A DNA stretch of 64,000 nucleotides from Geitlerinema sp. BBD 1991-9 (GTDB taxonomy: Bacteria; Cyanobacteriota; Cyanobacteriia; Cyanobacteriales; Geitlerinemataceae): contig LWRO01000006.1 in the NCBI GenBank assembly GCA_001657325.1, positions 124,001 to 188,000 on the forward strand, in the 5' to 3' direction. The position numbers were made by a program, and so were the translations under genes. Positions 43,507 to 59,782 of the stretch are shown here, in pieces. Under the pieces are notes generated by a model that had not been told where the DNA came from, made no database searches, and saw only the letters and a program-made list of their open reading frames with translations. Positions within the stretch are counted from its first letter, which is position 1, and every line of letters starts with the position of its first letter.

Positions 43507-46455
43507 CTATCGCCAATTTCCCACCAACACGAAGGGAGACCAATAATGGGGGTTTTGATAAGCTTCCCCGGCTTCCCCGCGAATTAAAGCAATTTGTGCT
43601 TGTCGCAGGGCTTCCGCTTTGTTAAAGTCGTCGCGATCGCTGAGGGCATTGTAAAAGTATTGCATTAGCTGCGAGGTCGATCGATCGTTGACGTTCCACA
43701 GACTGCCGATAATGCTGCGAACGCCTGCACGAATGGCGATTCCTGCCATTCCTAACACTGCTCGATCGCTCTCTTGTGCTGTTTGACAAGCACTTAATAC
43801 CACTAAGTCGAGATCGTTGCGTCCGCTGGGATCGTCAACTTGTAAAATGTCGGCGAGTTCGGTCGATCGAAGCAATCGATCGACTACGATAAAGGTACTT
43901 TCGGCAAAGTTGCTAAACCGTCCGTGAGTTGCAATGTGTAAGATTGGATACTTGAGGGAATGGACACCCCGCTGCAAATTTTCGACGGTAAATGTTTCTT
44001 CAAAAAGCTGTTGCGTATCGGCGACTTCTTGAATTCCATTGAGTTCGTCGTCAATATATTTTAAGTTACTGAGTTGCGTTCCGGGTGCGATGCGAGTATC
44101 GTCGAGAACTAGGCTGTTAAAGTTTTGTCGCCCTGCGGCTAAAACGCGAATTTTGGGAGTTTCGAGACGTTTGGGAGCGAGGAGTTGTAAACTCGGCGCA
44201 ACAGCGATCGCGTACTTTTCAATTAAGTATCGTTCGCCGTCATAAAGGACAGACATGGGAACCGATCGCAATTGTCCATCTAAGACAAAGACGATTTGCG
44301 ACACCTCAGCGGCTTGTAAGTCTGTTTCGAGAGGTGCAATGATTTTTTGATAGGCTTGCTGTGCGAGAGATTTTAACTCAGATTTTTCTTTTAAAGAAAT
44401 CTCAAGAAATTCAAACGTCAGTCCGATCTCTCCAAACTCTCGGTAACGATAAAATCGATCGCCGCCAAAGTTTGCGATAATTTCTAGACGATCGAAAAAC
44501 AAAATTGCGTAAACTGTCGCGGTGTCAGAATCGATTTCAGTTAAATCGACGGGTTGAGTTTCTAAACAAGCGATTCCAAAAAAATCGTTGATTTCAGCAA
44601 TTTGTAACGCTTGAATTGTCTGGGCTGCGATTTGTAAAGCTTCTTGGGAAACTGCCTCGGGACGCAGCAACAAATCGGCGTATTCTCGATAGACGGGTTC
44701 GACGCGATCGCGGAAAGAAAAACGCGAGTCTGGATCGAGGGTGTTTAAATCTAATTGAATTATTGTTAGGATATCAAGTGCTTTTTTATAATAATTGAGG
44801 GTATTAAAATATATCGGTTCTAATTCTAAATTGATTGGATTCTGTTCTTTTGAAAAATAGCCCATTCTCCAATAAAGTCGATATAAAATCTCTCGTGTAT
44901 TGGCACGTTCAGCCCGTTCGATCGCCTGTAAAGTGATGAGTTTTGCCCTATCGAAATTTCGATCCTGTAAGGTGTAGAGACTCGCAAAGGCTTCTAAAAC
45001 GTAAGCTTGCGATCGATCGTCTCCTAACTGTTGCGCTTCCTCTTTCGCAAGGTTTAACTGGTTTTCGACTTCCACCAGCGAGAACCCTGGAACCGCAGGC
45101 GGTTCGGTGTCAGAAAGGCGATCGCAGTTTAACGCCAAACACGCAAACTTGACACGAGCCTCAACGGTGAAGCGACTGGGGGGAAGGGCTGTCAGTTGAG
45201 TTTGAATCGATCGAACCCGAGTTTCAATATCGTTCGGGTGGATTTCCTCTCGGGTTAAATCCCGAATTAACGCCAAAGCGTTCAGGTTCGATCGCAATTG
45301 CAAGGCAGGAGACGCGGTGCGAACCTCGGCGGCACGATGGTAATATTGAAGCGCCCGGTCAAACGCGATGTCTTCGTCTTGTTGAATGTTGAGTTCCCGA
45401 GCGCGACGGGCGGCGGAGGCTTCCGTATTCCCCAAATCGAGGGAGACACGAGCGATCGACTCCTCAGACGCGATCGTTTCAGCCATCTCCAAACTGCGTT
45501 TTAACACGATACGCGATCGATCGAATTCTCCGATCGATCTCAACCCATTCGCCAACCCCTGCAACACCGCCACAGAAACCGCCGGATTTTCCCGAATATC
45601 GATCGATCGCTGTATCTCTACAACATCCTCCATCGCCAAACCCTGACACTGCTCACTGCTCACTGCTCGCTGCTCACTGTAAAGTGGCGCATCCAACACC
45701 TGCAACACCGTATCGCAAGCTCGTCGCGCAAAGCCCATCCCCTGCAACGCTTGCGCCTGATTCAACAATCCCCCCGTCACCCCTTCCTCGTCAGAAAGGC
45801 GGCGGTAAATCTGCGTTGCATCGCGCCAACTGTCGTAAGCCAACTCCATTTCCCCGAGGGCGAATTGCAACTGACCCCGCGTGTTGAGAATGGCGGCGAA
45901 AATGCGTTGCGTACTTTCATCACGCCTTGCGTCGGGAACGCCGATGAGTTCGAGGCTAAGATCGATCGCCGTTCTCGCCGCCTCCCAATTTCCGAGTTTT
46001 TGATGCGTCAAACTGAGATAATTATGCGCCAATCCTCGAATCGATCGATGGATTTCACCATCGTTTAACAGCGGTTCGAGAACCGACAATGCCGCCTCGT
46101 AGTCGTTATTAATATAGTGCGATCGCCATCGATCGAATTGAGAATCGATCGTCTGTTGTTGCACGGTTCGCGGATTACCCATGCCCTCATCCCCCAACCC
46201 CTTCTCCCAATATTGGGAGAAGGGGAGAAAATCCATCCCCCCTACCCCCCTTTCAAAGGGGGGTAGGGGGGATGGATTTAGGGAGAGGGCTGCATCATGG
46301 GGATGCACTCCAGGCGATCGCGAACTCGCCACTTGTGGAACCATCACCGTAAACGCCGCGATCGCAATCCCCAAAACAACCCAACGCCACAATATTTTTA
46401 CAACACTTAAAACAGCAACGACTCGATCGAAAAATACAACCCCTCTTCTTGCCAC
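43507..46455 (-). CDS. TPR-CHAT domain protein
   Basis: A 982-residue protein. A hydrophobic N-terminal segment (WVVLGIAIAAFTVMVPQVAS) is probably a signal or anchor. A linker made of palindromic repeat DNA follows, then a long TPR region (about 80-560; IRGLAHNYLSLTHQKLGNWE). The C-terminal CHAT domain has histidine in YPILHIATHGRFSN and cysteine in LVVLSACQTAQES, and ends WSPFVLVGNW. GTG 46455 is chosen because GAGGGG precedes it; TTG 46497 and TTG 46392 are alternatives. It overlaps the 3' end of the upstream secretion gene by 49 nt, which suggests coupled translation. It may act outside the cytoplasm. Confidence 0.85.
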   Translation of the reverse strand: MARRGVVFFDRVVAVLSVVKILWRWVVLGIAIAAFTVMVPQVASSRSPGVHPHDAALSLNPSPLPPFERGVGGMDFLPFSQYWEKGLGDEGMGNPRTVQQQTIDSQFDRWRSHYINNDYEAALSVLEPLLNDGEIHRSIRGLAHNYLSLTHQKLGNWEAARTAIDLSLELIGVPDARRDESTQRIFAAILNTRGQLQFALGEMELAYDSWRDATQIYRRLSDEEGVTGGLLNQAQALQGMGFARRACDTVLQVLDAPLYSEQRAVSSEQCQGLAMEDVVEIQRSIDIRENPAVSVAVLQGLANGLRSIGEFDRSRIVLKRSLEMAETIASEESIARVSLDLGNTEASAARRARELNIQQDEDIAFDRALQYYHRAAEVRTASPALQLRSNLNALALIRDLTREEIHPNDIETRVRSIQTQLTALPPSRFTVEARVKFACLALNCDRLSDTEPPAVPGFSLVEVENQLNLAKEEAQQLGDDRSQAYVLEAFASLYTLQDRNFDRAKLITLQAIERAERANTREILYRLYWRMGYFSKEQNPINLELEPIYFNTLNYYKKALDILTIIQLDLNTLDPDSRFSFRDRVEPVYREYADLLLRPEAVSQEALQIAAQTIQALQIAEINDFFGIACLETQPVDLTEIDSDTATVYAILFFDRLEIIANFGGDRFYRYREFGEIGLTFEFLEISLKEKSELKSLAQQAYQKIIAPLETDLQAAEVSQIVFVLDGQLRSVPMSVLYDGERYLIEKYAIAVAPSLQLLAPKRLETPKIRVLAAGRQNFNSLVLDDTRIAPGTQLSNLKYIDDELNGIQEVADTQQLFEETFTVENLQRGVHSLKYPILHIATHGRFSNFAESTFIVVDRLLRSTELADILQVDDPSGRNDLDLVVLSACQTAQESDRAVLGMAGIAIRAGVRSIIGSLWNVNDRSTSQLMQYFYNALSDRDDFNKAEALRQAQIALIRGEAGEAYQNPHYWSPFVLVGNWR
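45647..45679. repeat. Heptamer repeat inside the TPR-CHAT gene
   Basis: Units of CACTGCT repeat four to five times in frame, coding on the minus strand for part of YSEQRAVSSEQCQG. This is the reverse complement of the AGCAGTG repeat upstream of obgE. Confidence 0.8.
46183..46289. repeat. Nested palindromes within the TPR-CHAT gene
   Basis: Two perfect palindromic elements are embedded in coding sequence: 46198-46225 (28 bp, centre AATATT) and 46231-46277 (arms of 23 bp, 1-nt loop). Outer arms GCCCTC (46183) and GAGGGC (46284) enclose both. On the minus strand they encode LNPSPLPPFERGVGGMDFLP and FSQYWEKGLGDEG with no stop codon. Confidence 0.85.
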
Positions 46456-49400
46456 GAATCCCCTCGATCCTCCAAATCCATAAAAGGAATACCCCAATCT
46501 ACCGCAAGACGCAAGCGATCGCCCAAACGAAATCGTAACCCCAACCCCGCCGAAACCAACGCATTTCGTTCGGGATCGTTGCGATCGTCGCTATTCCAAA
46601 CCACCCCCGCATCGACAAACGGAACGATATCCAATTGACCGTTCCACTGCGGAATTTGCAACACCGGAACGCGCAATTCCACCGATCCTAAAATGCCATT
46701 GTCCGCCAACAGTGCATCTTGGCGATAGCCTCGGGCGGTGGAGCGTCCCCCCAAACTAATTTGCTCGAAGGGAACCAGCGCATCTGGGGTTAGCTGTACG
46801 TCGCCGCGAACCACCAACAGGGAATTTCCGACGTTTTCCAAACGACGCACCCACTGCGTTTGTCCCCGCCACGCGAAAAACTGACTGTCCGGTTCGTTGT
46901 CGTTCGTCGTCGCATCGAACCAGTTCACCCCCAAATTAAACTCCGATCGAACCGCAAAAACATAATCGTTCCCTTGTCGCGTCCAATCTTGAAAAAAACG
47001 CAAAACTGAAATCTTTGTTTCCCCATCGTCCTCTGCACCGGGAGACAGGGGAAAATCAAAACCGAGAATTGACGTTTGACTTTCCCGACGGGAGGCGGTG
47101 AAACCGATGGCGAATTCCTCAAAGCGATTCCGCTGACTCCCCACCCCTGGAACTTCCACCACCCGCAGCAGCGGTTGACGAACCGTTAACTCGTACTGGC
47201 GAGAATCCGCTTCGATGTCTAAAGAACGAAAGGGCGATTCCACCACTTCGTTCGCCCCCGTGTCGTAGCCGAAACGCAAGGTTCCCCCAGAACGGTTGAA
47301 AGGGACGGTGTAGCTAACTCCCCATTCGTCGCTTCCGTCGGTGTGGGCGTAGCTGACGCGGGCGGTGTCGCCGAATCCGAGTAAGCTGTTGAATTGCAGG
47401 CGAGCTTGTTGGCGGAAGGTTCCCACGCTTGGGGAGCGGTTGTTGTCGAGGCGGATGTCGGCGGTGATGGGGGAGGCGGCTTCGACGTTGAGGCTGAGGC
47501 GGTTGGTTTCCGGGCGCACTCCGGCGGACAGTTCGGCGGCGACGGTGACGATTCGATCGTCGAGTTGCAGGAGTTGCAGGGTTTGCAGGAGTTGGGTTTG
47601 GTTGACGAGATCGCCGGTTTCGACTCCCAAGCGGGAACGGACGTAACTGGGGTTGAGTCGTCCGCGAACGGATACGTCGATGTCTTCAAATTTCGATTCG
47701 GAGGCTTGCAGAACGAGGGTTCCATCGCGGCTGGTTTGGGGCGGAACGTACACGCCGGAGGTGATGTAGCCTCGTTCTCGGTAGTGTTGGCTGAGTTCGT
47801 CTGCGGCTTGTTGGACTTCGGCGAAACTGAGGGGGCGATTTCGGTATTTGTCGAGGATTCGATCGATCTCTTCGGGTTCTAAAACCGTACTCCCTTGCAG
47901 TGTTAAATCGGAAATCGTCACGGTGTCGGGGACAGTTCCCGGTTCGAGGTGGTCGAGATTGGAATTATCGAGATTGGATTTCTGGGTGTTGGGTTCGCAG
48001 GAGCCTGGTTGTTGGAAACGATCGTTCGCGTTTTGCGGAGCGGGTAACAGTTGGAGATCGCCGTTTTCGTTAATTATCCAGCTTTGGGCTTCGATGAGGC
48101 GTTCTACGGGTTCTTGGGTGACGGGTTCGTCCGTTGCATCGTCGGTGTTTTCGTCGAGGGGAATTGCACGAATATCTTCCCAAGGTTGGCTTCCCGTCAA
48201 CGGATCGTTGGGTGTGGGGGGTAAGCCGCCCCGTCCCGTTTGGACGAACTCGCTGTCTCCGCCGCCGATTTGACAGGGATTTCGATCGAGCGGTGCAGCG
48301 GCGAAACGATCTTCGAGTTCAACGAGTCCTTGCGTGGGATCGACATCGGGAGCGACAATTTCGACGGTTCCGTTGAGTGCGGGGTCAGTCAGAGAAATGG
48401 CGGTAATGAGGTTTCGATCGTCGGTCGTGGGGTCGAAATTCAGTAGGTTTTCTTCGCCAATTTCCGCAACCAGTTCTTCTCGGCTGAGGGGTTCTAATCC
48501 TAAAACGATATCGTCGGCGGTAATGTCGATCGCACCGCCGCGTCCGTTGAAGGCGTTCGCTGCAATGTTGCTGTTTTCTAATCCGACGAGGGTATTTGTA
48601 TTGATGGTGATGTTCCCTCCCGTTCCCGCTCGATCTGGTTGTCCCGAAGTGGTGGAGATTTGAGCGTTTTCGAGGAGGCGAACGTCGTCGGCGTTGACGA
48701 ATAAATTGCCCCCTTGGCCGAAAGCGGCTTCGGCGGTGAGTGCTCCGCCGTTTTCGATGCGGAGATCCTCGGCGTTGAGGGTGACGTTTCCGGCGAGTGG
48801 GCTTCCGACATCGGCATTGACGCTAATCTGGGCGAGATTTGCAATGGTTAGAAAAGGGGTATTAATGGTGACGTTGCCCGCTTCACCGGGATCGATTTCT
48901 TCGGGAAAACGTCGTTCCCGAACCGCTCGAGCAGTGATGCGACTGGGAAGCAAACCATCCTCGTCGATGATGGGATTGAATGGGGCATTAGAGGGCAGAG
49001 AGACGGGATCGTTCGATCGACCGCTCACCTGTACTGACTCAGAAGCCGTTACCGTAACGCGGCCACCATTTCCCGCCGCAAAGGTATCGGCAGAAATTGC
49101 TGCCCCATCGCGAACCGTCAAGCGTCCCGTCGAAATGTTTAAATTGCCGCCATTCCCCGCCATGTCAGGCTGAATTCGGCCTTGAGATTGAACGACAATA
49201 CTGGTGGGCGAGTTGTAGTCAGGAGAAGTTCCCACGAGATCGATCGACTCGTGAGCCGTAACCGTTACGTTGCCGCCATCCCCCGTGCCAAAGGCGATCG
49301 CCTGAATTTGTCCACCGCTATCGAGGGCGAGTCGATCGACGTTCACATTAATATCTCCCCCCGGTTGTGCGCCCCGAGTTGAGGCAACGATCGAAGCGCG

Positions 49401-50912
49401 ATCGCTCACCCGTAACTCGCTTGCTTCGATCGTCAAATCCCCTGGCGCTCCAAGGTTTGCCGGTTCAACTTGACGAGATGGAACCGCTCCCACATCGAGA
49501 CGAGTCTCTTGAAAATTCTGTTCAATTCCTCGAACTTCTACCAAATCCGCCGCGATCGAAATATTTCCACCGTCTCCATACCCCATTGTCATCGCGCCGA
49601 CAATACCGCCATCGCACACTAACAACTCTCGGGTTTCGATAACGATATTTCCCGCGTTCCCCGTTGCTTGAAACTCGATCGTTTCCAGAGGCTGCACTTG
49701 CGAGAGAATACTGCTTCGTCGAGTCCCATCGATCGAGATACCAATGCCATCGACGAGAACCGTATCGGCGGAAATTCTCAGATCGCCACCGTTACCGGAG
49801 GCTGCGGTTCCTGTCGAAATCTGCGCCCCGTTGCGAATCGAAAGGTCGATCGTATCGATGAAAAGATTGCCCGCATTTCCACTCCCCTGTGTTTGCGAAA
49901 ACAATCCAGCGGACTCCAACAGCGGAAGTTCGCCAGATTCCGAACCGTTTTCAGAACCCGGTTGTACGTCTCCTGTCAGATCGATCGTTGCAGCCGAGAT
50001 TACAAACGTCCCACCATCTGCATCGAAAGTACTGCTTGTAATCCCAGAGTCAGAGATGAATAGCTGACCCGATCGAATTTGGATATCGCCACTTCCCATT
50101 TCCGGGTTGCTGTCTGATGCGTGCAAACCGCTGGCATCAACCACAGAATTTTCAGACAAACGAATGGTTCCAAATTGGTCTATCCCGTCGTAACCCAAAC
50201 GATAACCGTTAGAAACGGCATTCAAACTCACCGTTCCCGAACCCGCCACGCTCCCGAGTTCAATACGTCCGCCGAAATTTGTCGCGTTACCCCCTTCAAA
50301 TAGGAGATCGCCGCCAGCAAAAATCAAGCTGTTGTTCGAGTTCACGGTTAACCCAGTGGGTAAATTAATGCTATTTAGACCCTCTACAGAAGCTTGAGAG
50401 GTATTGGTAATCGAACCGGGGGTTTCGCCAAACTGCAAACCCAGGGGAGCGGAGACAGACAGCAGCGGCGAAGGTTGACGAGCATCGAACTCGCTCCCGT
50501 CGGCGAATTGTATGCTGTCGGCGGTGGTAGCGACGAACGAACCTCCGATTTTCAGTTGAGCGTTTCGCCCGAAAATAATGCCGTTGGGATTGAGGAAAAA
50601 CAGACTCGCTCCCTGAGTTTCTAAAATTCCCTCAATTCGCGAAATATTGTTTCCCGTGATGCGGCTAAAAATCGTTTCGATTCCCGCGTCATTTTCAAAC
50701 AACGCGGTCGCGTTTTCGGGAATTGAGAACTCCTCGAAACTGTGAAATAGGTTATTTCCCGCAGCCGTTCCCCCCTGAATGCGGAAGGTTTCGCCTTCCA
50801 AAGTGACGGTGGAGTTTTCTAGGAGGGTGGCATCGGGGACGATTTGCGCCGTGACGGGTGTGGCGATCGAAAAGATTGCTAGAGCGAGGGTAGATGGGGA
50901 TAGGGAAGACAT
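46407..50912 (-). CDS. Fused two-partner secretion protein: FHA-type passenger plus POTRA/FhaC barrel
   Basis: A 1501-residue outer-membrane protein. A signal peptide (LALAIFSIATPVTAQ) leads to a TPS domain of filamentous-hemagglutinin type (about 25-170; FFLNPNGIIFGRNAQLKIGG near 107). A beta-helix of repeats follows to about 860 (AGNVTINTPFLTIANLAQIS). After a disordered stretch come two POTRA-like domains (from about 998, DLTLQGSTVLEPEEIDRILD; then DIDVSVRGRLNPSYVRSRLG) and an FhaC/ShlB-type barrel (about 1150-1501), with the loop GGRSTARGYRQD. Normally passenger and transporter are separate genes. ATG 50912 is preferred over TTG 50939. The CHAT gene overlaps its 3' end. Confidence 0.88.
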   Translation of the reverse strand: MSSLSPSTLALAIFSIATPVTAQIVPDATLLENSTVTLEGETFRIQGGTAAGNNLFHSFEEFSIPENATALFENDAGIETIFSRITGNNISRIEGILETQGASLFFLNPNGIIFGRNAQLKIGGSFVATTADSIQFADGSEFDARQPSPLLSVSAPLGLQFGETPGSITNTSQASVEGLNSINLPTGLTVNSNNSLIFAGGDLLFEGGNATNFGGRIELGSVAGSGTVSLNAVSNGYRLGYDGIDQFGTIRLSENSVVDASGLHASDSNPEMGSGDIQIRSGQLFISDSGITSSTFDADGGTFVISAATIDLTGDVQPGSENGSESGELPLLESAGLFSQTQGSGNAGNLFIDTIDLSIRNGAQISTGTAASGNGGDLRISADTVLVDGIGISIDGTRRSSILSQVQPLETIEFQATGNAGNIVIETRELLVCDGGIVGAMTMGYGDGGNISIAADLVEVRGIEQNFQETRLDVGAVPSRQVEPANLGAPGDLTIEASELRVSDRASIVASTRGAQPGGDINVNVDRLALDSGGQIQAIAFGTGDGGNVTVTAHESIDLVGTSPDYNSPTSIVVQSQGRIQPDMAGNGGNLNISTGRLTVRDGAAISADTFAAGNGGRVTVTASESVQVSGRSNDPVSLPSNAPFNPIIDEDGLLPSRITARAVRERRFPEEIDPGEAGNVTINTPFLTIANLAQISVNADVGSPLAGNVTLNAEDLRIENGGALTAEAAFGQGGNLFVNADDVRLLENAQISTTSGQPDRAGTGGNITINTNTLVGLENSNIAANAFNGRGGAIDITADDIVLGLEPLSREELVAEIGEENLLNFDPTTDDRNLITAISLTDPALNGTVEIVAPDVDPTQGLVELEDRFAAAPLDRNPCQIGGGDSEFVQTGRGGLPPTPNDPLTGSQPWEDIRAIPLDENTDDATDEPVTQEPVERLIEAQSWIINENGDLQLLPAPQNANDRFQQPGSCEPNTQKSNLDNSNLDHLEPGTVPDTVTISDLTLQGSTVLEPEEIDRILDKYRNRPLSFAEVQQAADELSQHYRERGYITSGVYVPPQTSRDGTLVLQASESKFEDIDVSVRGRLNPSYVRSRLGVETGDLVNQTQLLQTLQLLQLDDRIVTVAAELSAGVRPETNRLSLNVEAASPITADIRLDNNRSPSVGTFRQQARLQFNSLLGFGDTARVSYAHTDGSDEWGVSYTVPFNRSGGTLRFGYDTGANEVVESPFRSLDIEADSRQYELTVRQPLLRVVEVPGVGSQRNRFEEFAIGFTASRRESQTSILGFDFPLSPGAEDDGETKISVLRFFQDWTRQGNDYVFAVRSEFNLGVNWFDATTNDNEPDSQFFAWRGQTQWVRRLENVGNSLLVVRGDVQLTPDALVPFEQISLGGRSTARGYRQDALLADNGILGSVELRVPVLQIPQWNGQLDIVPFVDAGVVWNSDDRNDPERNALVSAGLGLRFRLGDRLRLAVDWGIPFMDLEDRGDSWQEEGLYFSIESLLF

Positions 50913-51092
50913 CGAAGACAAGGAGGACGAGGGAAACAAGGTAATACCATTTTAAATAATTAATGCAATAGATAAGCGTAGGGGCAAGTCTCTGTGCTTG
51001 CCCAATTTCAACAACGGGTAACTGTTCGCCGTAAAAGCTGTTTAGAACAGTATTGATTTGGAGGTTAACAACCCGATCGCCGTATTGTTTTT

Positions 51093-51326
51093 TTACAAAT
51101 AAAGAATGACTCGATCGGGGAATTTCCCCTCTCCCACTTTTTTGCCATCGACAAATATTTCAGCATTACCTGTGCTGCTGTGACCAACACGAGCGACACC
51201 ATCGGCATCGGTGTTAACGGGTTGACTCATCCCTCCTAAAAGTCCAGCAAATCCCAACCGGACTCGACAACCTCTTTTTCGTTTTTGGTTTTTGTAAACG
51301 ATAATTTTGCTAATGTGTTTACCCAT
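51093..51326 (-). CDS. Small Ig-like/carboxypeptidase-regulatory-like protein
   Basis: A 77-residue protein: basic start MGKHISKIIVYKNQKRKRGC, then a beta-sandwich-like repeat (VNTDADGVARVGHSSTGNAE, IFVDGKKVGEGKFPDRVILY). The NTDADGVARV pattern recalls the transthyretin-like fold that decorates surface proteins. It has no signal peptide. ATG 51326 has a strong AAGGAG site 7 nt upstream, which supports a real gene. Similar short proteins occur in cyanobacteria, but none has a known role. It lies between the fused secretion gene and the giant subtilase, same strand. Confidence 0.72.
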   Translation of the reverse strand: MGKHISKIIVYKNQKRKRGCRVRLGFAGLLGGMSQPVNTDADGVARVGHSSTGNAEIFVDGKKVGEGKFPDRVILYL

Positions 51327-51499
51327 AACTATCTCCTTGGTTGCGTCGATTTATGTTTTTATAGTTCTAGTTTGATTATATTTTACCGAATCGCAAAATA
51401 GTGAAACCTACATATTTCTTATTGAGATAAATCTTCGATTTTCGTTTTTTGCCATCGGGTATATTTCCGTATTTTATATCAACAAACGATCCGAAAACC

Positions 51500-51527
51500 G
51501 TAGGGGCGAACGGCCGTTCGCCCCTAC
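51500..51527. terminator. 28-bp perfect palindrome after the subtilase gene
   Basis: GTAGGGGCGAACGG and its complement meet at the centre without a loop. It starts 41 nt past the giant gene's stop on the minus strand. A shorter variant (GGGCGAAC/GTTCGCCC followed by CCTACAG) sits at 43444. This looks like a dispersed repeat that may terminate transcription. Confidence 0.6.
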
Positions 51528-51568
51528 AATGGCATTGATATTTATCGTACTACTACAGCGTCTTGAAG

Positions 51569-54500
51569 TTATCCCAAAGAACCGACACCCGCGACGATAT
51601 CGTTATCGCACTCAGGCGCAAGGGTGTAAACATAATCTCCATCCGGCAAGAGATCGCGATCGAACTTCAATACCATCGTATTCGAGCCAGTTGCGCCGAA
51701 TTGACCAAAGTTCAACCCGAACAGATTAGCATTATTCAACACTTCAACATCGCCAATTTTGGTTCCCGAAACCATGCTGTTGGGAACGTGGTGACTGAGA
51801 TTAAAGTAAGGATCGGTCGCACTCAAATCCGCCGAAGTGGGAGTTCCACCATGTTGGGTTATCCAATTGATATAACCCGAAAGACTGGCATCCCACAACG
51901 CCATCCCATTTTCCACTGCAATGTCAGTTGCTCGGACGTTGCGGTAAACGCCAAGTTCGCTAACTCCTGAGTCACTCAGTTCAGCAAACCGGATACCAAA
52001 TAACTCTCCGTTTGCACTGGCTGTATCGAGATTGTTACCCGAGAAATTGAATAGCAAATCGCCCCAACCCACGTGTCCGTCAGTAGCATACGCGCTGCTG
52101 ACTCCCGATAAGGGTAAATTCGAGTTGATAGCCAGGTAAATGCTGTCACTCGTTTCTTTCAAAGCAGTGCCGTAAATTTCATAGTGGGTTCCGCCTACGT
52201 CGTAGCCAGCCATACTATCGTTGAAGCTGTCGATGGAATACTGCCAATCTTTATTGACATAGGGCAGACTTCCCGAATCGTTGGGAATTTCGATGATTCC
52301 TTGACGTGGCGACCAACCTGGGAGTTCAGAAATGTATAGATCGCTCCAAAAATCGTTATCTCTGAAGTGTGTGAAATCTTCTCCTTCAAACACGCCATTT
52401 TTCACGTTGTTTGGTTCTCCAGTTCGAGCCAGCCAGTTGGTGTAAGAAACAGCCTCTCCACCGACCCACTGGAAGTCTCCTTCTCGGGCGTTATAAATCG
52501 GGCTGTCCGTGAAACCAATCCAAGCATCGATGGTTCCAAACGTATCGATAAGCCACTGATTTTCCGCCTCGTTTTCAATGGTGACTAAACGACCGCCGAG
52601 AGCTTCCGCGTGTTCTTGTGCGCCGAGCCAAGTATCGAATTGGCTGAGAACATAGCGGTTTCCGGTGTTGGGGTTGGTGTAAACGGGAGGATTAAAGGGG
52701 GTGGCGCTGTCGTCGATGGTAATTTGACCGATCGCTTGACTGGCCAAGGTATAATCACCGGGCTGAATTTCCACGATCGCCGTCTCAGGACTTTCAACTC
52801 GACCGTCAAAAATGCCGTGAATCGGAACCGTGATGAGTTTTTCACCCGCCGGAATCGTCACTTGATTCGGTAACGCCTCGTAATCTGCCCCAGGCGTGGC
52901 ACTTCCCGACACCGTTAAATCGAGCGTTAAATCTTGACTGAGATCGTCAAATCGTTGAATGACAATCTGTCCGGCGTTGCCATTCTCCCCAGCTTTCGCA
53001 TCTGTCACCATCATCGTGACGATGGGATTATCTAACTGGTTGGGATCGATTTCAGCAATGCCGTGGAGAATATGAGAACCTGGGCGATCGTTCCATTTCC
53101 CTTGGTTGGGGAAATTACCCATATCTTGGTGAAGATGTACTGAATCTTCTTCGCCCAAGTTGTTGGGTTCGCTGGGATGCCAGTTGGTGTAGGTGACAGG
53201 CTCTCCATTGACCCAGATAAACTCACCGCTAGAGCCGCCATACACAGGATTATCTGTGAAACCTATCCAGAGAATTTCGTTGGCACCAAAAGTATCAATG
53301 AGCCAATCCTGTTCGGCTTGGTCGTTGATGGTAACGAGATTACCGCCTAACGCCTCAGCTTGTGCTTGTGCGCCGTACCAAGTATCGCGTTCGGTGACAA
53401 TGTAGAGATTGCCCGTATCGGGATTTTCATAGATAAAAGAGCCGTAACGGGAAATCGTGGAACTGTCGGCGATCGTGGCAGTTCCGTTAATATCGCTACC
53501 TAAGATATAGTCGCTGCCACTCGTCAAAGTAATTTCGACCGTTTCATCACCTTCACCGAGCAAATCGTAATTGGGAACTACAGAAATCGTCGCGCCTTTT
53601 TGTCCCGGTTCTAAGGTAACGCTCCCCGCAAGCGGTTGATAGTCGCTGTCGCGGTTCGCGGTTCCACCGATTTGATAGTTCACCACCAGAGTTTCATCGA
53701 GGTTTTCCTCGCGGGTGACGGCGAAAACGGCTGCGTCACCATCTTCACTTGCTTCAGTATCGAGGACTTCAAGGTTAACCGTGGTCGCTGCTTCTAGTAA
53801 CAGAGTTTGTCCTAAGCTAGTCCGACCGAGTGCGTCAGTGACGGCTGTATTAATGATGAAATCGCCAGTATAGCCGTCACTCGGCGTGTACTGAACGTCA
53901 TCGAGAACGGCATTCACGGCTTCAACCGAACCCGTCACGCGGAATACACCGTCACTAAACTCGACGCTGGCACTATTGCTCGTATTGCTGCTCAGAATTC
54001 CCGCGTCTTTATCAGACAAACTCAAGATCGCCGTCATGGGATTTCCAGCAGGCGCACTGGCATGAACGTCATTGATATCCAGAGACGTACCCGGCGTATA
54101 GATTTGCTTCCAGTCGTATTTGCGAATGACAACATCCATCGAGCCGCTATAGGGTTGCCCATCTACCGAGCTGTGGGAGCGACCTAACGTATACAGCGAG
54201 TTGTTTGTCAATAGAATGTTGTCCATGGCATCCCAAGCGGGATAGGCCAGTTTTTCCGTCCAGTCAATTCGCTGTCCTTGAGGATCGAAGGCGGTGACTA
54301 AGCCATCAAAACTGCTTCCAGTCGTTTCAGATTGCGTCCCCGAGAGTAAAACATTGCCAAAGTCATCGATTTGTACGTCGCCGTAGGTTCCATAGTCGTA
54401 CTCAGAGGTTCCGAACTGTCGAGTCCATAGCAGTTCGCCATCTGAGTCGTATTTGGCAGCGAAAATATCGCCTTCCCCGAACTGAGTTTGTCCTGGGAAC

Positions 54501-57500
54501 GCGCCCCAAGTTACCCCATGAACGGCAATGTTTCCGTGGCGATCGATATCGATTCCATGAATGGCATCCTGGTCTGACGTTCCGAGTTGAAGTGTGCGAA
54601 CGATATTGCCATCGGTATCGATGCTGGCAACAAATCCATCGAGATAACCCTCATGGTTTTGACCCGGAAAAGCACCATAAATCCATCCCGCCATTTCCAA
54701 ACGATTTTCAGTGGCATTAAATCCCACATCCATCGGCACATGACTGGGTAGATCGATCTGTTTTGCCCAAATTTGATTGCCGCTCGTATCCCATTTGATA
54801 ACGATGGAATCATAGCCGTTTGAATTAGCGGAAGTACTATCGAACAATTCTCCCGCCGTATAGCCGACCGTATAAAGATTGCCGTCGTTGTCGGTGACAA
54901 CACCATCTAAAGCATCTTCTTGGGGGGTTCCCAATTGATGAGACCAAATGAGATTTCCGTCAGTATCGTATTTCGCAAAGAAGGCATCTCGCCCGCCTTG
55001 ATGAGCGCCAGCCAGCGAACTAAACGTACTTCCCGTAACGTACAGGTTGCCGTCTTTGCCAATGTCGATTTGGTTAAAGCGATCGCCTTCCGTACCTCCT
55101 AACAACTCTGTCCAAACTAAATTGCCTTTCGCATCGAATTTGCTGATGAAAGCATCGCCATGACCGTTTTCATAGTTGTTTCCGGCATTGGTGTTGTTGT
55201 GTAAATCTCCGAGGGTAAAGCCAACAATATAGCTATTGCCTTCTGCATCGACGGCGATATCTAGCGCTGAATCCCAGGATGGAGTGCCAATTTCTGTTGT
55301 CCAATGTTTAGTGGGTTCGACAAAAAGACTGGGAGGATCTGGCAATTCTGGTTCCGTTCCGTACAGGTTCAGTTTCCAACCCTTCCACTCTCCGCTGATG
55401 TCGTTTCCTTTCTCATCGAGAACCTGTAACGTCCACTCACCCTCAGAGGATTCACCCCAGAAACGAGGAGTGCTAAACGTCCAATATCCTTTTCGGAAGG
55501 GATCTTCGGGCGCTAAGTGCGGAATTTCAACATCGCTGATGTCCAGGTCGGGAATGCTGTGACGGAGAACGGTTTCGGTACCGTCGGGAGAGGTGAGGAT
55601 AACGCTGAGGTCGTTCCAGTCTTCGTGAGCGAAATCGGCAACCACTTCAACCCATTCGAGGGTGATGTCGGATTCGACTTCTACGCTGTCGCTCAAACCC
55701 ACCGTTCCGCCGTTGGGAAGGTCGTCGTTAACGTTGCGGAATTTCGTTTCAACACGGATTTCGGGGGTTACGGTCGTCCATTCGGCGGCCAGTTCGACGG
55801 CGGCTTTCGGGTTCACCGCGCCAAACCCGTATTGATAGTTAATGTCGTACCCTGCGCCGTTCGTCGTCCAACCGGATTCGGTACGGTTGTAGTCGGGATC
55901 GACTTCGTCGGGATGATGGTCGGGATCGACTTTATAGGACGTTTCAGCCAGGATGTGCTGGATGTCGCGGTTCGAGAGATGGGGGTTGACTTCCCGCATT
56001 AAAGCAACAACCCCAGAAACAAAGGGAGCGGCGGCGGAAGTGCCTCCGAAACCGCTTTTACCAGCGGGATAACCTACATAAGTATCTCGGCCGCGGTGGT
56101 TGATGTTAACCCCAGTGGTGACAATGTCAGTTCCGTTTGGGTTCCCCTCTAAGCCGTTGTTGGAGTAGGCGGAAACAAACGCGCCGGGATTGCTGTAGGG
56201 AGCGCGAACGATTTCGATTTCTCCCGCTTCACCTTTGAATGTAACGGCTCCGACTGCAATGGAGTGGCGACTGTTCGTTAGGGCGTAGTTGTTGACTTGA
56301 GCGTAGCCTAAGCCGCTACCGATGTCGCGACTGCGATCGTTCCCGGCGGAAAAGATGTAACTGTTCCCCAAACCGTCGAGTCCGTATTTTGCTCCAGATT
56401 CTAGGGCTGCGGTGGCTAGGGGTTGATGGACAAAGGGAAAAGCCCCCCAACTGTTATTGAAAATGTCGATTTCTGCGTTGCGTCGATCGTCGTATAAGGT
56501 CTGGGCAATTGTTGAACCGTAAATGTCGTAGTCGTAGTCGATCGCGTCGATGTTACCGATCAGCCGCAAGGCTGCAATGTCGGCGTTGGCTGCGATACCC
56601 CGCGTTCCCTTGTCTCCATCTTCGTCGGCGACAATACCCGCGACGGCTGTACCGTGGGGGTTAATCGTCGTGATTTCGATGGAAAACGAGCCGAGTTTCT
56701 CGACGACAGATTTCCAGGTTTCGGGAATTGGACCGTAGGTATCGTTGTAAAAATGAAGCTTCCAAGTGCCACCCGCAAAGCTACGATCGAATCCATCCGC
56801 CAATATTAGGGATAATTCTCCGGGGTTGTTTTCTTGGATAAAGTCACTGGCGGCAAAGTTTAAGTCATTCCAACCGGGGAAATACCAGGAGTAATTTCGC
56901 AGGCTAAACCAGTCACCGGGTATGTCGATCGAGTCTTCTGGAGAAACGAGTTCGATCGCGATATCTTGGAGTGCTTTGAGTTCGCTTGGGGTCAGAGAGG
57001 TATTCTCGAAATGAACGTCAACATCCACCACAACCCCAGTCAGCGTCACGGGAATGTCAAAGGTAAAGCTGTCTTTCGAGAAATCGTCGATTTTGAGATC
57101 GACATTAAAACTCTCGATCGATTGCGGAAAAGGATCGTCGTCGCCGTCGGTGTAGTCGTAACTTAAATCGGGACGATAGCGACCTCCGGTTTCGGGGTTG
57201 AATTCGATGTGGTCGTATTTCAAGCCGTCATCGACGATCGCCACGACAACGCCTTCACCGGAGAGGAATTCGCCAGTTGGATAGCGAAGGGCTGGATGCT
57301 CCCAAACGCCGATAATGTTGGAGTTGGGGTCGCTCGGATCGATGGGTTGATGCAGCGACCATTGCTCGTCTTCAAGATAATCAGGATCGCGTCCCAATAA
57401 ACGCAGGGGAATCGGAACGTCGGGATAGGCGACTTCGACGGTTGGCGTATTGACGATCGATGCAGTAATCTCTGCTGCACTCAATCCGTCGTCGAAATCC

Positions 57501-59782
57501 CAAATATAAGTATTGGAAATGAAACCGCTTTCACCGAGGTTCGTAGCATCCAAGCTTTCAGCTAAAGCAGTTGCATCGGTTCCGGGGGTCAGCCAAACAA
57601 TCCAGTTCGCCGTGTCTTCGATTTCTGCGGCGGTGTAACTGTCGAGATCGGTGGATACGCCGATCGCCAAGCGAACGGGATCGGAAAGTGTCTCGCCACC
57701 GCCGAGATCGCTAATCAGGGAAAAGGATTTAAATTCGAGATTGCTGGATGCGTTGCTGTTGTCGTAGGCGATCGCTTTTAAGGTGTATCGATCGGGGGCG
57801 AGATTTTCCAGGTCGTACTCGAAGTTAAATCGCGCTCGTCCTTGGCTGTCGATCGAAAATTCGGTCACGTCTTCTTCGATGATTTCGATGCGCTGTCCTT
57901 GGCGGTTTTCTAACCAAAAATCCACGCGGTTTAAGTCGTCGATTCCGTTAGCATCGAAAACTCGCGCTCGATCGAAGTTCAACACTTCCCCAGTGGTATA
58001 AACGGGTAAAATGCTAAAGACTAAATCTTCTGGCGGTGCGTTAATTTCTGGGATTTCATCGCCAGAACCTCCATCGTCGATAATTGGCGGTTCTTCTTCG
58101 TCATCGTTGTTGTCAATCGCAAATCCTTGAATGGTACTACTTTCTTCACCCGCTGCGTCTGTGACGATCGACCGAATTCGATACTCGCCATCTGCCAATC
58201 CGCTCACGTCGTACTCGAGGTTAAAGCTCGATCGATCGTCGCCTTCCTCCGTCATTGTTCCCACGACGACTCGATCGATCTCTTCCCCATCTGCGCTTTC
58301 TAAAACCAACGTCACTGATTGAAGATCGTCAACCCCATCGACATCGGAAACCAAACCGCTTAAATCGAGGATTCGATCGCCTTCAACTCGAGAACTGTCA
58401 AGCTGCAGTTCCACCCATTGAGGCGTATGATTTTCGGGTTCTCCAGGCTCTCCAATGCCTCCACCGGGGGGATCTTCTCCCGGTTCACCCCCCCCTGAAT
58501 CGAGGTTCAACCCAAAAGAAACTTCCGCAACTTCACTCGTATCTCCCGTTTGGTCTTCCGCACGAACAGAAACGGTATAATTGCCCAATTCTAACCCAGA
58601 AATATCGTAGTCCCAAACGAGATCGCCTTGGTTTTCTTCGATGTTTTCAAACGTGGGATCTACAATTTCTAGCGTTTTGACGATCGATCCCGTATCATCG
58701 GCGATCGAAATCTCAATCTTCGCGACATCTTCAATCCCTTCACTATCAGACACCGTCAAATTCAACGCCAGAGAATCGTCCACAGTCAGCGAATCTTCAA
58801 CTAAATCAGAATGGAGAATTTGCGGTGCAGTTTTCAGATTAATTTCTTCCGTCCAAGCCTTGTAATCGTCGTCAATTAAATCTTCGACTTTGTGAATACC
58901 TTCCCCGCGCACCCCTTCCAGTCGAAACGCAATATCGTTATAATCTTTATCTGAACTCGCATCGGCACGCCAATCTTCTAAAATGTAAACTTGGCTCCCT
59001 GCATCGGCAATTTGTCCCACATGAAACATTTCGTTCGGGTTGGCACTGGCGAGGGAAAAGAGCGGTCGTTTAGAACCGCCGATTTCGGGATTTTCAAAAA
59101 CCTCTTGAATCAAACCATCGGGAACCAGAATAATTCCCATTCGATCGCCAACGTTCATCGAAAAAGTATTGCGTCCGGCGTAAGTTCCACTGTTTTCAAC
59201 ATCGGTTTCCCAGTCAAATGCCGCATCGAGACGTGCTGCATCGGTTCGATCGTCGATAATAATATGACCGAGGGTCGAATCGCTCATCGATCGACGCGCC
59301 ACTTCTTTAACCCACTCAGGAGAACCCGTCTCGAACTCCTCCAATCCCTCTAAACTAAAAATGCCAACTTGACCTTCATATTTGCCGCCGTCAATGAGAT
59401 AATCTACAGTAATATTTTCGTCTTCAACCGTGAAGTAACCGCTCGAAATTTCGAGGCCGGTAATCGCGTCGTATTCCGGTTCGAGGCTGAAACCGTAATC
59501 GCTGGCTTCCGCTGCGGAGAAAACGAGGTCGTAGGAACCCGCCGCCAAATCGGGAATATCAAATTCAGTTGCAGAACTGAGGGTTAAACTCCCCTCGTCG
59601 ATAAACTCCCCGGCTTCCGTTTCCAACGTCCAGTCAATGGCGGCCTCGACATTGGAGAATCCCAAATTCAGCTGTCCAGTTTCGGTAAAAGCGAAGCGAT
59701 ATCGATCTCGGAGTTCGGTGTCTGTAAAATTCTCAGTATATTCAACGAATCCTTCAAGGTTTTCAAAGTTGTGGGTCACCAT
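51569..59782 (-). CDS. Giant subtilase with P-domain-like insert, beta-propeller, Calx-beta and lectin domains
   Basis: A 2737-residue mosaic without signal peptide. Approximate order: DUF4114-like domain (200-285; GDRMGIILVPDGLIQEVFEN), three cadherin/Ig-like repeats, S8 protease with aspartate 851 (VVAIVDDGLKYDH), histidine 1043 (NPHGTAVAGIVAD), oxyanion asparagine near 1110 (FNNSWG) and serine 1249 (FGGTSAAAPFVSG). A P-domain-like stretch lies between Asp and His, and a second P-domain follows the protease. Then come SBBP-type propeller repeats (IAVDAEGNSYIVGFTLG), Calx-beta repeats (about 1985 and 2255), two C-type-lectin-like domains and a C-terminal region like XDD3 exosortase substrates. 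AGGAG precedes ATG 59782. It probably acts outside the cell. Confidence 0.88.
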   Translation of the reverse strand: MVTHNFENLEGFVEYTENFTDTELRDRYRFAFTETGQLNLGFSNVEAAIDWTLETEAGEFIDEGSLTLSSATEFDIPDLAAGSYDLVFSAAEASDYGFSLEPEYDAITGLEISSGYFTVEDENITVDYLIDGGKYEGQVGIFSLEGLEEFETGSPEWVKEVARRSMSDSTLGHIIIDDRTDAARLDAAFDWETDVENSGTYAGRNTFSMNVGDRMGIILVPDGLIQEVFENPEIGGSKRPLFSLASANPNEMFHVGQIADAGSQVYILEDWRADASSDKDYNDIAFRLEGVRGEGIHKVEDLIDDDYKAWTEEINLKTAPQILHSDLVEDSLTVDDSLALNLTVSDSEGIEDVAKIEISIADDTGSIVKTLEIVDPTFENIEENQGDLVWDYDISGLELGNYTVSVRAEDQTGDTSEVAEVSFGLNLDSGGGEPGEDPPGGGIGEPGEPENHTPQWVELQLDSSRVEGDRILDLSGLVSDVDGVDDLQSVTLVLESADGEEIDRVVVGTMTEEGDDRSSFNLEYDVSGLADGEYRIRSIVTDAAGEESSTIQGFAIDNNDDEEEPPIIDDGGSGDEIPEINAPPEDLVFSILPVYTTGEVLNFDRARVFDANGIDDLNRVDFWLENRQGQRIEIIEEDVTEFSIDSQGRARFNFEYDLENLAPDRYTLKAIAYDNSNASSNLEFKSFSLISDLGGGETLSDPVRLAIGVSTDLDSYTAAEIEDTANWIVWLTPGTDATALAESLDATNLGESGFISNTYIWDFDDGLSAAEITASIVNTPTVEVAYPDVPIPLRLLGRDPDYLEDEQWSLHQPIDPSDPNSNIIGVWEHPALRYPTGEFLSGEGVVVAIVDDGLKYDHIEFNPETGGRYRPDLSYDYTDGDDDPFPQSIESFNVDLKIDDFSKDSFTFDIPVTLTGVVVDVDVHFENTSLTPSELKALQDIAIELVSPEDSIDIPGDWFSLRNYSWYFPGWNDLNFAASDFIQENNPGELSLILADGFDRSFAGGTWKLHFYNDTYGPIPETWKSVVEKLGSFSIEITTINPHGTAVAGIVADEDGDKGTRGIAANADIAALRLIGNIDAIDYDYDIYGSTIAQTLYDDRRNAEIDIFNNSWGAFPFVHQPLATAALESGAKYGLDGLGNSYIFSAGNDRSRDIGSGLGYAQVNNYALTNSRHSIAVGAVTFKGEAGEIEIVRAPYSNPGAFVSAYSNNGLEGNPNGTDIVTTGVNINHRGRDTYVGYPAGKSGFGGTSAAAPFVSGVVALMREVNPHLSNRDIQHILAETSYKVDPDHHPDEVDPDYNRTESGWTTNGAGYDINYQYGFGAVNPKAAVELAAEWTTVTPEIRVETKFRNVNDDLPNGGTVGLSDSVEVESDITLEWVEVVADFAHEDWNDLSVILTSPDGTETVLRHSIPDLDISDVEIPHLAPEDPFRKGYWTFSTPRFWGESSEGEWTLQVLDEKGNDISGEWKGWKLNLYGTEPELPDPPSLFVEPTKHWTTEIGTPSWDSALDIAVDAEGNSYIVGFTLGDLHNNTNAGNNYENGHGDAFISKFDAKGNLVWTELLGGTEGDRFNQIDIGKDGNLYVTGSTFSSLAGAHQGGRDAFFAKYDTDGNLIWSHQLGTPQEDALDGVVTDNDGNLYTVGYTAGELFDSTSANSNGYDSIVIKWDTSGNQIWAKQIDLPSHVPMDVGFNATENRLEMAGWIYGAFPGQNHEGYLDGFVASIDTDGNIVRTLQLGTSDQDAIHGIDIDRHGNIAVHGVTWGAFPGQTQFGEGDIFAAKYDSDGELLWTRQFGTSEYDYGTYGDVQIDDFGNVLLSGTQSETTGSSFDGLVTAFDPQGQRIDWTEKLAYPAWDAMDNILLTNNSLYTLGRSHSSVDGQPYSGSMDVVIRKYDWKQIYTPGTSLDINDVHASAPAGNPMTAILSLSDKDAGILSSNTSNSASVEFSDGVFRVTGSVEAVNAVLDDVQYTPSDGYTGDFIINTAVTDALGRTSLGQTLLLEAATTVNLEVLDTEASEDGDAAVFAVTREENLDETLVVNYQIGGTANRDSDYQPLAGSVTLEPGQKGATISVVPNYDLLGEGDETVEITLTSGSDYILGSDINGTATIADSSTISRYGSFIYENPDTGNLYIVTERDTWYGAQAQAEALGGNLVTINDQAEQDWLIDTFGANEILWIGFTDNPVYGGSSGEFIWVNGEPVTYTNWHPSEPNNLGEEDSVHLHQDMGNFPNQGKWNDRPGSHILHGIAEIDPNQLDNPIVTMMVTDAKAGENGNAGQIVIQRFDDLSQDLTLDLTVSGSATPGADYEALPNQVTIPAGEKLITVPIHGIFDGRVESPETAIVEIQPGDYTLASQAIGQITIDDSATPFNPPVYTNPNTGNRYVLSQFDTWLGAQEHAEALGGRLVTIENEAENQWLIDTFGTIDAWIGFTDSPIYNAREGDFQWVGGEAVSYTNWLARTGEPNNVKNGVFEGEDFTHFRDNDFWSDLYISELPGWSPRQGIIEIPNDSGSLPYVNKDWQYSIDSFNDSMAGYDVGGTHYEIYGTALKETSDSIYLAINSNLPLSGVSSAYATDGHVGWGDLLFNFSGNNLDTASANGELFGIRFAELSDSGVSELGVYRNVRATDIAVENGMALWDASLSGYINWITQHGGTPTSADLSATDPYFNLSHHVPNSMVSGTKIGDVEVLNNANLFGLNFGQFGATGSNTMVLKFDRDLLPDGDYVYTLAPECDNDIVAGVGSLG

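Follow-up and report, generated by a model that had tools for sequence, protein, structure and literature searches.

The catalytic domain of a giant kexin-like S8 protease of Geitlerinema sp. BBD 1991-9 is split, after the DPxP loop and ahead of the catalytic His, by an insert (aa 887-1040). This insert is very probably homologous to the P-domain of proprotein convertases, although divergent. The gene lies in the 64,000-nucleotide stretch of DNA analysed here as a whole, which we call the window; the coordinates are given in Table 1. A preliminary description of this DNA had put the catalytic Asp and His about 190 residues apart and called the stretch between them P-domain-like. The measured spacing was 192 residues, compared to 36-46 in insert-free relatives, and the stretches that were quoted do exist in the protease sequence. 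The P-domain-like character was borne out by homologous inserts and profile comparison, with a fold model in support. The direct HMM match to P_proprotein proposed there as a check was not obtained in Pfam, so this check fails at face value; the window insert alone had no match in Pfam, NCBIfam or PDB sequences. Since it falls below the Pfam cut-off, we term it a divergent homologue and not a Pfam member.

Table 1. Features of the protease gene and of its neighbours (positions in the window; aa, residues of the respective protein).
Feature	Position	Strand	Evidence
Giant kexin-like S8 protease, 2737 aa	51569..59782	-	ORF; Pfam/NCBIfam domains; PDB sequence relatives
Peptidase_S8 catalytic domain, aa 842-1321, split by insert	55820..57259	-	Pfam 115.5 bits
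Catalytic Asp851 (VDDG)	57230..57232	-
Kexin/furin-type loop YDYTDGDDDPFP, aa 875-886; insertion point directly after	57125..57160	-	Profile A1 aligned to furin chain
Inserted domain, very probable P-domain homologue, ~155 residues, aa 887-1040	56663..57124	-	Homologous inserts, profile comparison, fold model
Predicted short helix in insert, LTPSELKALQD, aa 930-940	56963..56995	-	AF2 model, alignment A5
Aromatic loop WFSLRNYSWYFPGW, aa 958-971, partly common to the window's subgroup	56870..56911	-	Alignment A5
Catalytic His1043 (HGTA)	56654..56656	-
Catalytic Ser1249 (GTSAAAP)	56036..56038	-
Ordinary C-terminal P_proprotein domain, aa 1375-1473	55364..55660	-	Pfam 54.8 bits
XDD3 exosortase-dependent domain, aa 2513-2708	51659..52246	-	NCBIfam 199.4 bits
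Two-partner-secretion (TPS) exoprotein fused to ShlB-type transporter, 1510 aa	46407..50939	-	Pfam TPS 201 bits, ShlB 106.8 bits; conserved neighbour, downstream of protease
CHAT-domain protein, 996 aa, third cassette gene	43507..46497	-	Pfam CHAT 201.6 bits; near TPS in several relatives

Location of the insert in the protease

Furin, the Aeromonas protease ASP and kexin were the best PDB sequence relatives of the 2737-aa protease, and its Peptidase_S8 score compares to a cut-off of 21.8 bits. The catalytic triad runs in the order Asp851, His1043, Ser1249, each residue within a conserved motif, with a His-Ser spacing of 206. This order, the DPxP loop before the His and a P-domain directly after the catalytic domain, as expected of a kexin-like S8 enzyme, are shared with kexin/furin (MEROPS S8B) and with ASP. 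The C-terminal copy is the only P_proprotein domain that Pfam reports in the window protease. The insert, however, lies between Asp851 and His1043 and not C-terminal to the S8 domain; a profile of 17 stretches between the catalytic Asp and His (D-H stretches; profile A1) put the insertion point just after the DPDPQP loop of furin. Neither furin nor Kex2 has space for an insert here, with the Asp region at chain residue 47 or 54 and the His region at 85 or 90, and it is the splitting of the catalytic domain by the probable P-domain homologue that sets the window protease apart from them.

In kexin-like enzymes P-domains are listed after the subtilisin domain (excerpt of PMC2605481). The preliminary description had considered a P-domain inside the catalytic core to be unusual, and, as far as a search of mainly open-access literature goes, this held: it found no publication on a P-domain within an S8 catalytic domain. 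With a P-domain inside the catalytic domain, and two of them in some relatives, the effect of a P-domain on an S8 enzyme becomes testable by position. Tripeptidyl peptidase II and pyrolysin also have, like the window protease, a large insertion between Asp and His; these insertions are not known as P-domains.

Relation of the insert to P-domains

Among 33 D-H stretches, 19 were matched by P_proprotein (PF01483) at E<=0.01, the best one with 67.7 bits. In a scan of ten stretches, those of L022 (67.7 bits), L021 (34.4), L018 (26.3) and L017 (25.5) were above the Pfam cut-off of 21, that of L013 was under it at 14.2 bits, and those of L010, L012, L014, L016 and L027 had no match. In a wider set, scores of 45.2 and 39.0 bits were reached by L033 and L044, while L065, a member of the window's subgroup that carries the window-type aromatic loop, passed the cut-off at 22.8 bits. 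The profile of all 17 D-H stretches matched the P-domain of Aeromonas ASP with E 2.4e-6.

We observed that the long D-H stretches (148-229 residues) are of two sorts, a window-like one (L010, L012-L016, L027) and a more P-like, mostly shorter one (L017, L018, L021, L022, L029, L032, L033, L037, L039). In alignment A5 the intermediate inserts L075-L081 bridge the two sorts, and framework columns of W, G and L are invariant or nearly so among the inserts. Judged by sequence, the homologous inserts at this site form a continuous series. Because homologues at the same site are P-domain-like, a chance resemblance of the window insert to a P-domain was excluded.

Profile comparison with hhalign was made with the flank trimmed and with 100 column shuffles, the window subgroup being represented by 8 inserts and the P-like subgroup by 10. 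The window-type inserts scored 56.2 against the P-like ones (shuffles: mean 10.3, maximum 17.7), and the P-like inserts scored 83.3 against the C-terminal P-domains (shuffle maximum 19.1). Compared directly with the C-terminal P-domains, the window-type inserts scored 20.1, not above the shuffles (maximum 20.2). Therefore, the link of the window insert to P-domains runs through the intermediates.

The fold model, made by AF2 from two sequences alone (the window and L010), predicts a beta jelly roll, mostly of strands, with two helices (pTM 0.63, pLDDT 63). The insert is thus ordered in the model; a disordered one had been named in the preliminary description as evidence against its proposal. 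For the whole catalytic region the AF2 model was poor (pLDDT 35) and was not used to place the insert on the cleft. The best PDB match of the insert model in Foldseek was 3wqb_A, the Aeromonas ASP protease with its P-domain (E 2.6e-4, probability 1.00), followed by a plant virus coat protein (E 6.3e-4). Aligned by VIA-align, the model gave Z 8.0 with furin residues 446-578 (3.2 A over 116) and Z 7.6 with Kex2 462-599; jelly rolls of insecticidal toxins tied with the furin P-domain at Z 7-8.

This tie, together with the missing Pfam or PDB sequence match of the window insert alone and the failure of its subgroup to match C-terminal P-domains directly, is what one would see for a generic beta jelly roll unrelated to P-domains. 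We regard such an origin as very improbable, given that plain P-domains occupy this site in several homologues (L022, L033, L044 and L021, with the scores given above), that L065 from the window's own subgroup is above the Pfam cut-off, and that the score of one subgroup against the other is far above the shuffles.

Besides the D-H site, some relatives have a second inserted P-domain between His and Ser, just before an (I/A/V)TT motif. The H-S spacing was 313-334 in L022, L029, L037, L039 and L057, compared to 174-217 in the others measured. P_proprotein was found in the H-S stretches of L071 (the same gene as L022; 65.3 bits), L057 (64.4), L046 (27.3) and L073 (21.8), and slightly below the cut-off in L045 (20.5); the H-S stretch of the window protease had no P_proprotein match. 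L022, L029, L037, L039 and L057 are therefore written as Asp-P-His-P-Ser enzymes; four of the five also have the C-terminal P-domain, and none was seen in the stretch searched of L057.

Distribution, history and divergence of the inserts

A search with the catalytic region matched 22 of 59 related genomes at E<=1e-30. The insert is also present in Baaleninema simplex PCC 7105, with 51% identity in the best segment of the searched region. In a sample of the class, full D-H matches were found in 5 of 388 genomes (G000, G378, G314, G022, G184), all from the window's order; in a sample of the order, 40 of 388 genomes matched at E<=1e-20, and 45 of the 48 matches spanned the whole profile. The two samples (388 genomes each) overlap, and outside the class the coverage is that of the close-relative scan. 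Plasmids searched by tblastn with the D-H region gave no match, and neither did viral contigs searched with P0002.

In a tree of 69 P-domains, made by a quick method from few columns, all 38 C-terminal domains fell on one side (SH-aLRT 91), opposite 26 D-H and 5 H-S domains, and the H-S domains grouped with one subset of the D-H domains (SH-aLRT 95). The P-domains thus group by position and not by protein, which is why we do not favour the view that the insert arose recently as a copy of the C-terminal P-domain of the same protein. On the catalytic-core tree the presence of the insert takes three changes, so a single gain does not account for it. With a distant outgroup, under a weak root, an insert-free group was nested among the insert-bearing ones, and loss of the insert is therefore possible. 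One old origin of the insert followed by losses is plausible, and we infer that the insertion is old within this cyanobacterial protease group.

By sequence identity, no part of the catalytic region diverges faster than the insert. Between the window and L010 (Baaleninema) the insert was 39% identical, compared to 70-97% for the other catalytic parts and 90% for the C-terminal P-domain. The insert was less alike than the core in all ten pairs with a core value, by at least 9 points in eight of them; the difference was narrow in L070/L078 (78.0 vs 79.9) and L074/L082 (37.4 vs 39.5), and for an eleventh pair, L043/L033, a core value was lacking. Compared to the C-terminal P-domain the picture was mixed, with the insert better kept in L065/L066 and L070/L078.

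Synonymous divergence (pS) was 0.77 in the insert, 0.19-0.56 elsewhere in the catalytic domain and 0.51 in the backbone gene ndhF. The raised value in the insert points to a mosaic gene; in a mosaic gene, faster protein change alone is not evidence of selection. Exchange of gene segments, instead of selection on binding, may account for the divergence of the insert. Positive selection on the insert is not claimed, as synonymous sites are saturated there.

This high divergence, the unrelated inserts that the same loop accepts in L004 and L034, and the many adhesive-looking domains that Pfam and NCBIfam find in the protease would suit a tolerated, weakly constrained surface appendage or a module for adhesion, in either case without a catalytic role. 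We consider this unlikely: the insert was kept in the 45 full-length matches of the order sample, the common framework of W, G and L columns was kept as well, and the insert bearers are the TPS-linked enzymes (see below). The unrelated inserts themselves are those of L004/L118, with a D-H spacing of 128 and helix-rich by sequence, and of L034/L108, with a D-H spacing of 82.

The TPS neighbour and the possible role of the insert

We examined 33 insert-bearing loci (the window, L092, L093-L103 and L121-L140). A same-strand TPS gene was located downstream of 26 of the 33 protease genes, with a median gap of 690 bases; 19 of these TPS genes were within 1 kb. Among the remaining loci, four were too near the end of a contig or region (L124, L128, L131, L133), and L127, L129 and L130 had no TPS gene in 3-9 kb downstream. 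Another 16 loci came from relatives that lack a P-type insert, 14 of them having no insert and 2 a different one; a downstream TPS gene was seen at none of these. A Fisher test of 26/29 vs 0/16 gave 1.5e-9, with the loci related, the counts not independent and relatedness uncorrected. TPS genes are numerous in G000 (50 in a 6-Mb genome), G388 (29) and G022 (9), and they are common in control genomes too (G390 25, G051 14, G225 14). Tandem arrays of two or three insert-free kexin-like proteases were seen at L106, L109 and L115.

The protease, the TPS-ShlB fusion and the CHAT gene make up a cassette, at 43507-59782 of the window and at L092/L104. In the Baaleninema-like genome G388 the same three genes are clustered about 720 kb away from the region that matches the window's flanking genes; in that region there is no cassette between the flanking genes, and ndhD and the MFS gene are close together.

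The insertion point precedes the catalytic His by one short loop, so the inserted domain should border the substrate cleft, and docking or access control would be a reasonable role for it; the preliminary description had suggested that it could gate the active site. In furin the loop before the catalytic His lines the S2 pocket. We tentatively favour the explanation that the P-domain homologue, one loop from the His and beside the cleft, would serve as a docking exosite and rim, selecting which protein reaches the active site; we infer both this role and the substrate, of which the TPS exoprotein encoded next door would be the likeliest candidate. The protease would then be a dedicated processing or releasing enzyme for that exoprotein, the insert may change quickly because it tracks its substrate, and the C-terminal P-domain would retain its usual stabilising job.

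The main competing explanation is that the insert stabilises the catalytic domain and helps it fold. It is modelled on CspB of Clostridium, in which a jellyroll of about 130 aa, likened by the authors to P-domains, interrupts the S8 domain; its deletion gave a protease-sensitive protein and slower autoprocessing (excerpts of PMC3567191). The predicted fold class of the window insert is the same. By triad spacing, however, the CspB insert must fall between His183 and Ser494, outside the D-H stretch. The second site of the relatives is, like that of CspB, in the H-S stretch, but the domains at this second site are P-domains according to Pfam. A stabilising part would also hardly be expected to change fastest in the catalytic region when the C-terminal P-domain stays 90% identical in the same pair, or to be absent from existing relatives. 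We therefore rank stabilisation as rather doubtful, behind the docking explanation.

For TPS exoproteins, release by a subtilisin-type surface protease is described for SphB1 of Bordetella, which acts on FHA; this enzyme is an autotransporter, encoded by a gene without linkage to the TPS locus (excerpts of PMC5422565). The window-type protease gene, unlike that of SphB1, is usually the upstream neighbour of the TPS gene, and the window protease has no autotransporter beta-barrel domain in Pfam. According to the same review, TPS operons do not seem to include the genes of maturation proteases; should the exoprotein be the substrate, the window-type locus would run counter to this. A broader proposal, which we put forward with considerable doubt, is that the cyanobacterial kexin-like lineage uses the P-domain as a movable specificity module at one or two sites of the core (Asp-P-His, Asp-P-His-P-Ser) beside the C-terminal one, each enzyme being a dedicated, gene-linked protease for a TPS exoprotein.

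No strongly hydrophobic 19-residue window, as for a signal peptide or a C-terminal membrane segment, was found near either end of the protease. Features of exosortase anchoring were present, namely the XDD3 domain in the protease and an exosortase in the genome. The C-terminal part of the protease seems exchangeable: the Baaleninema homologue (L010) ends in beta-propeller-like repeats and lacks the XDD3 domain of the window protease. The G000 genome has five XDD3 proteins with one exosortase.
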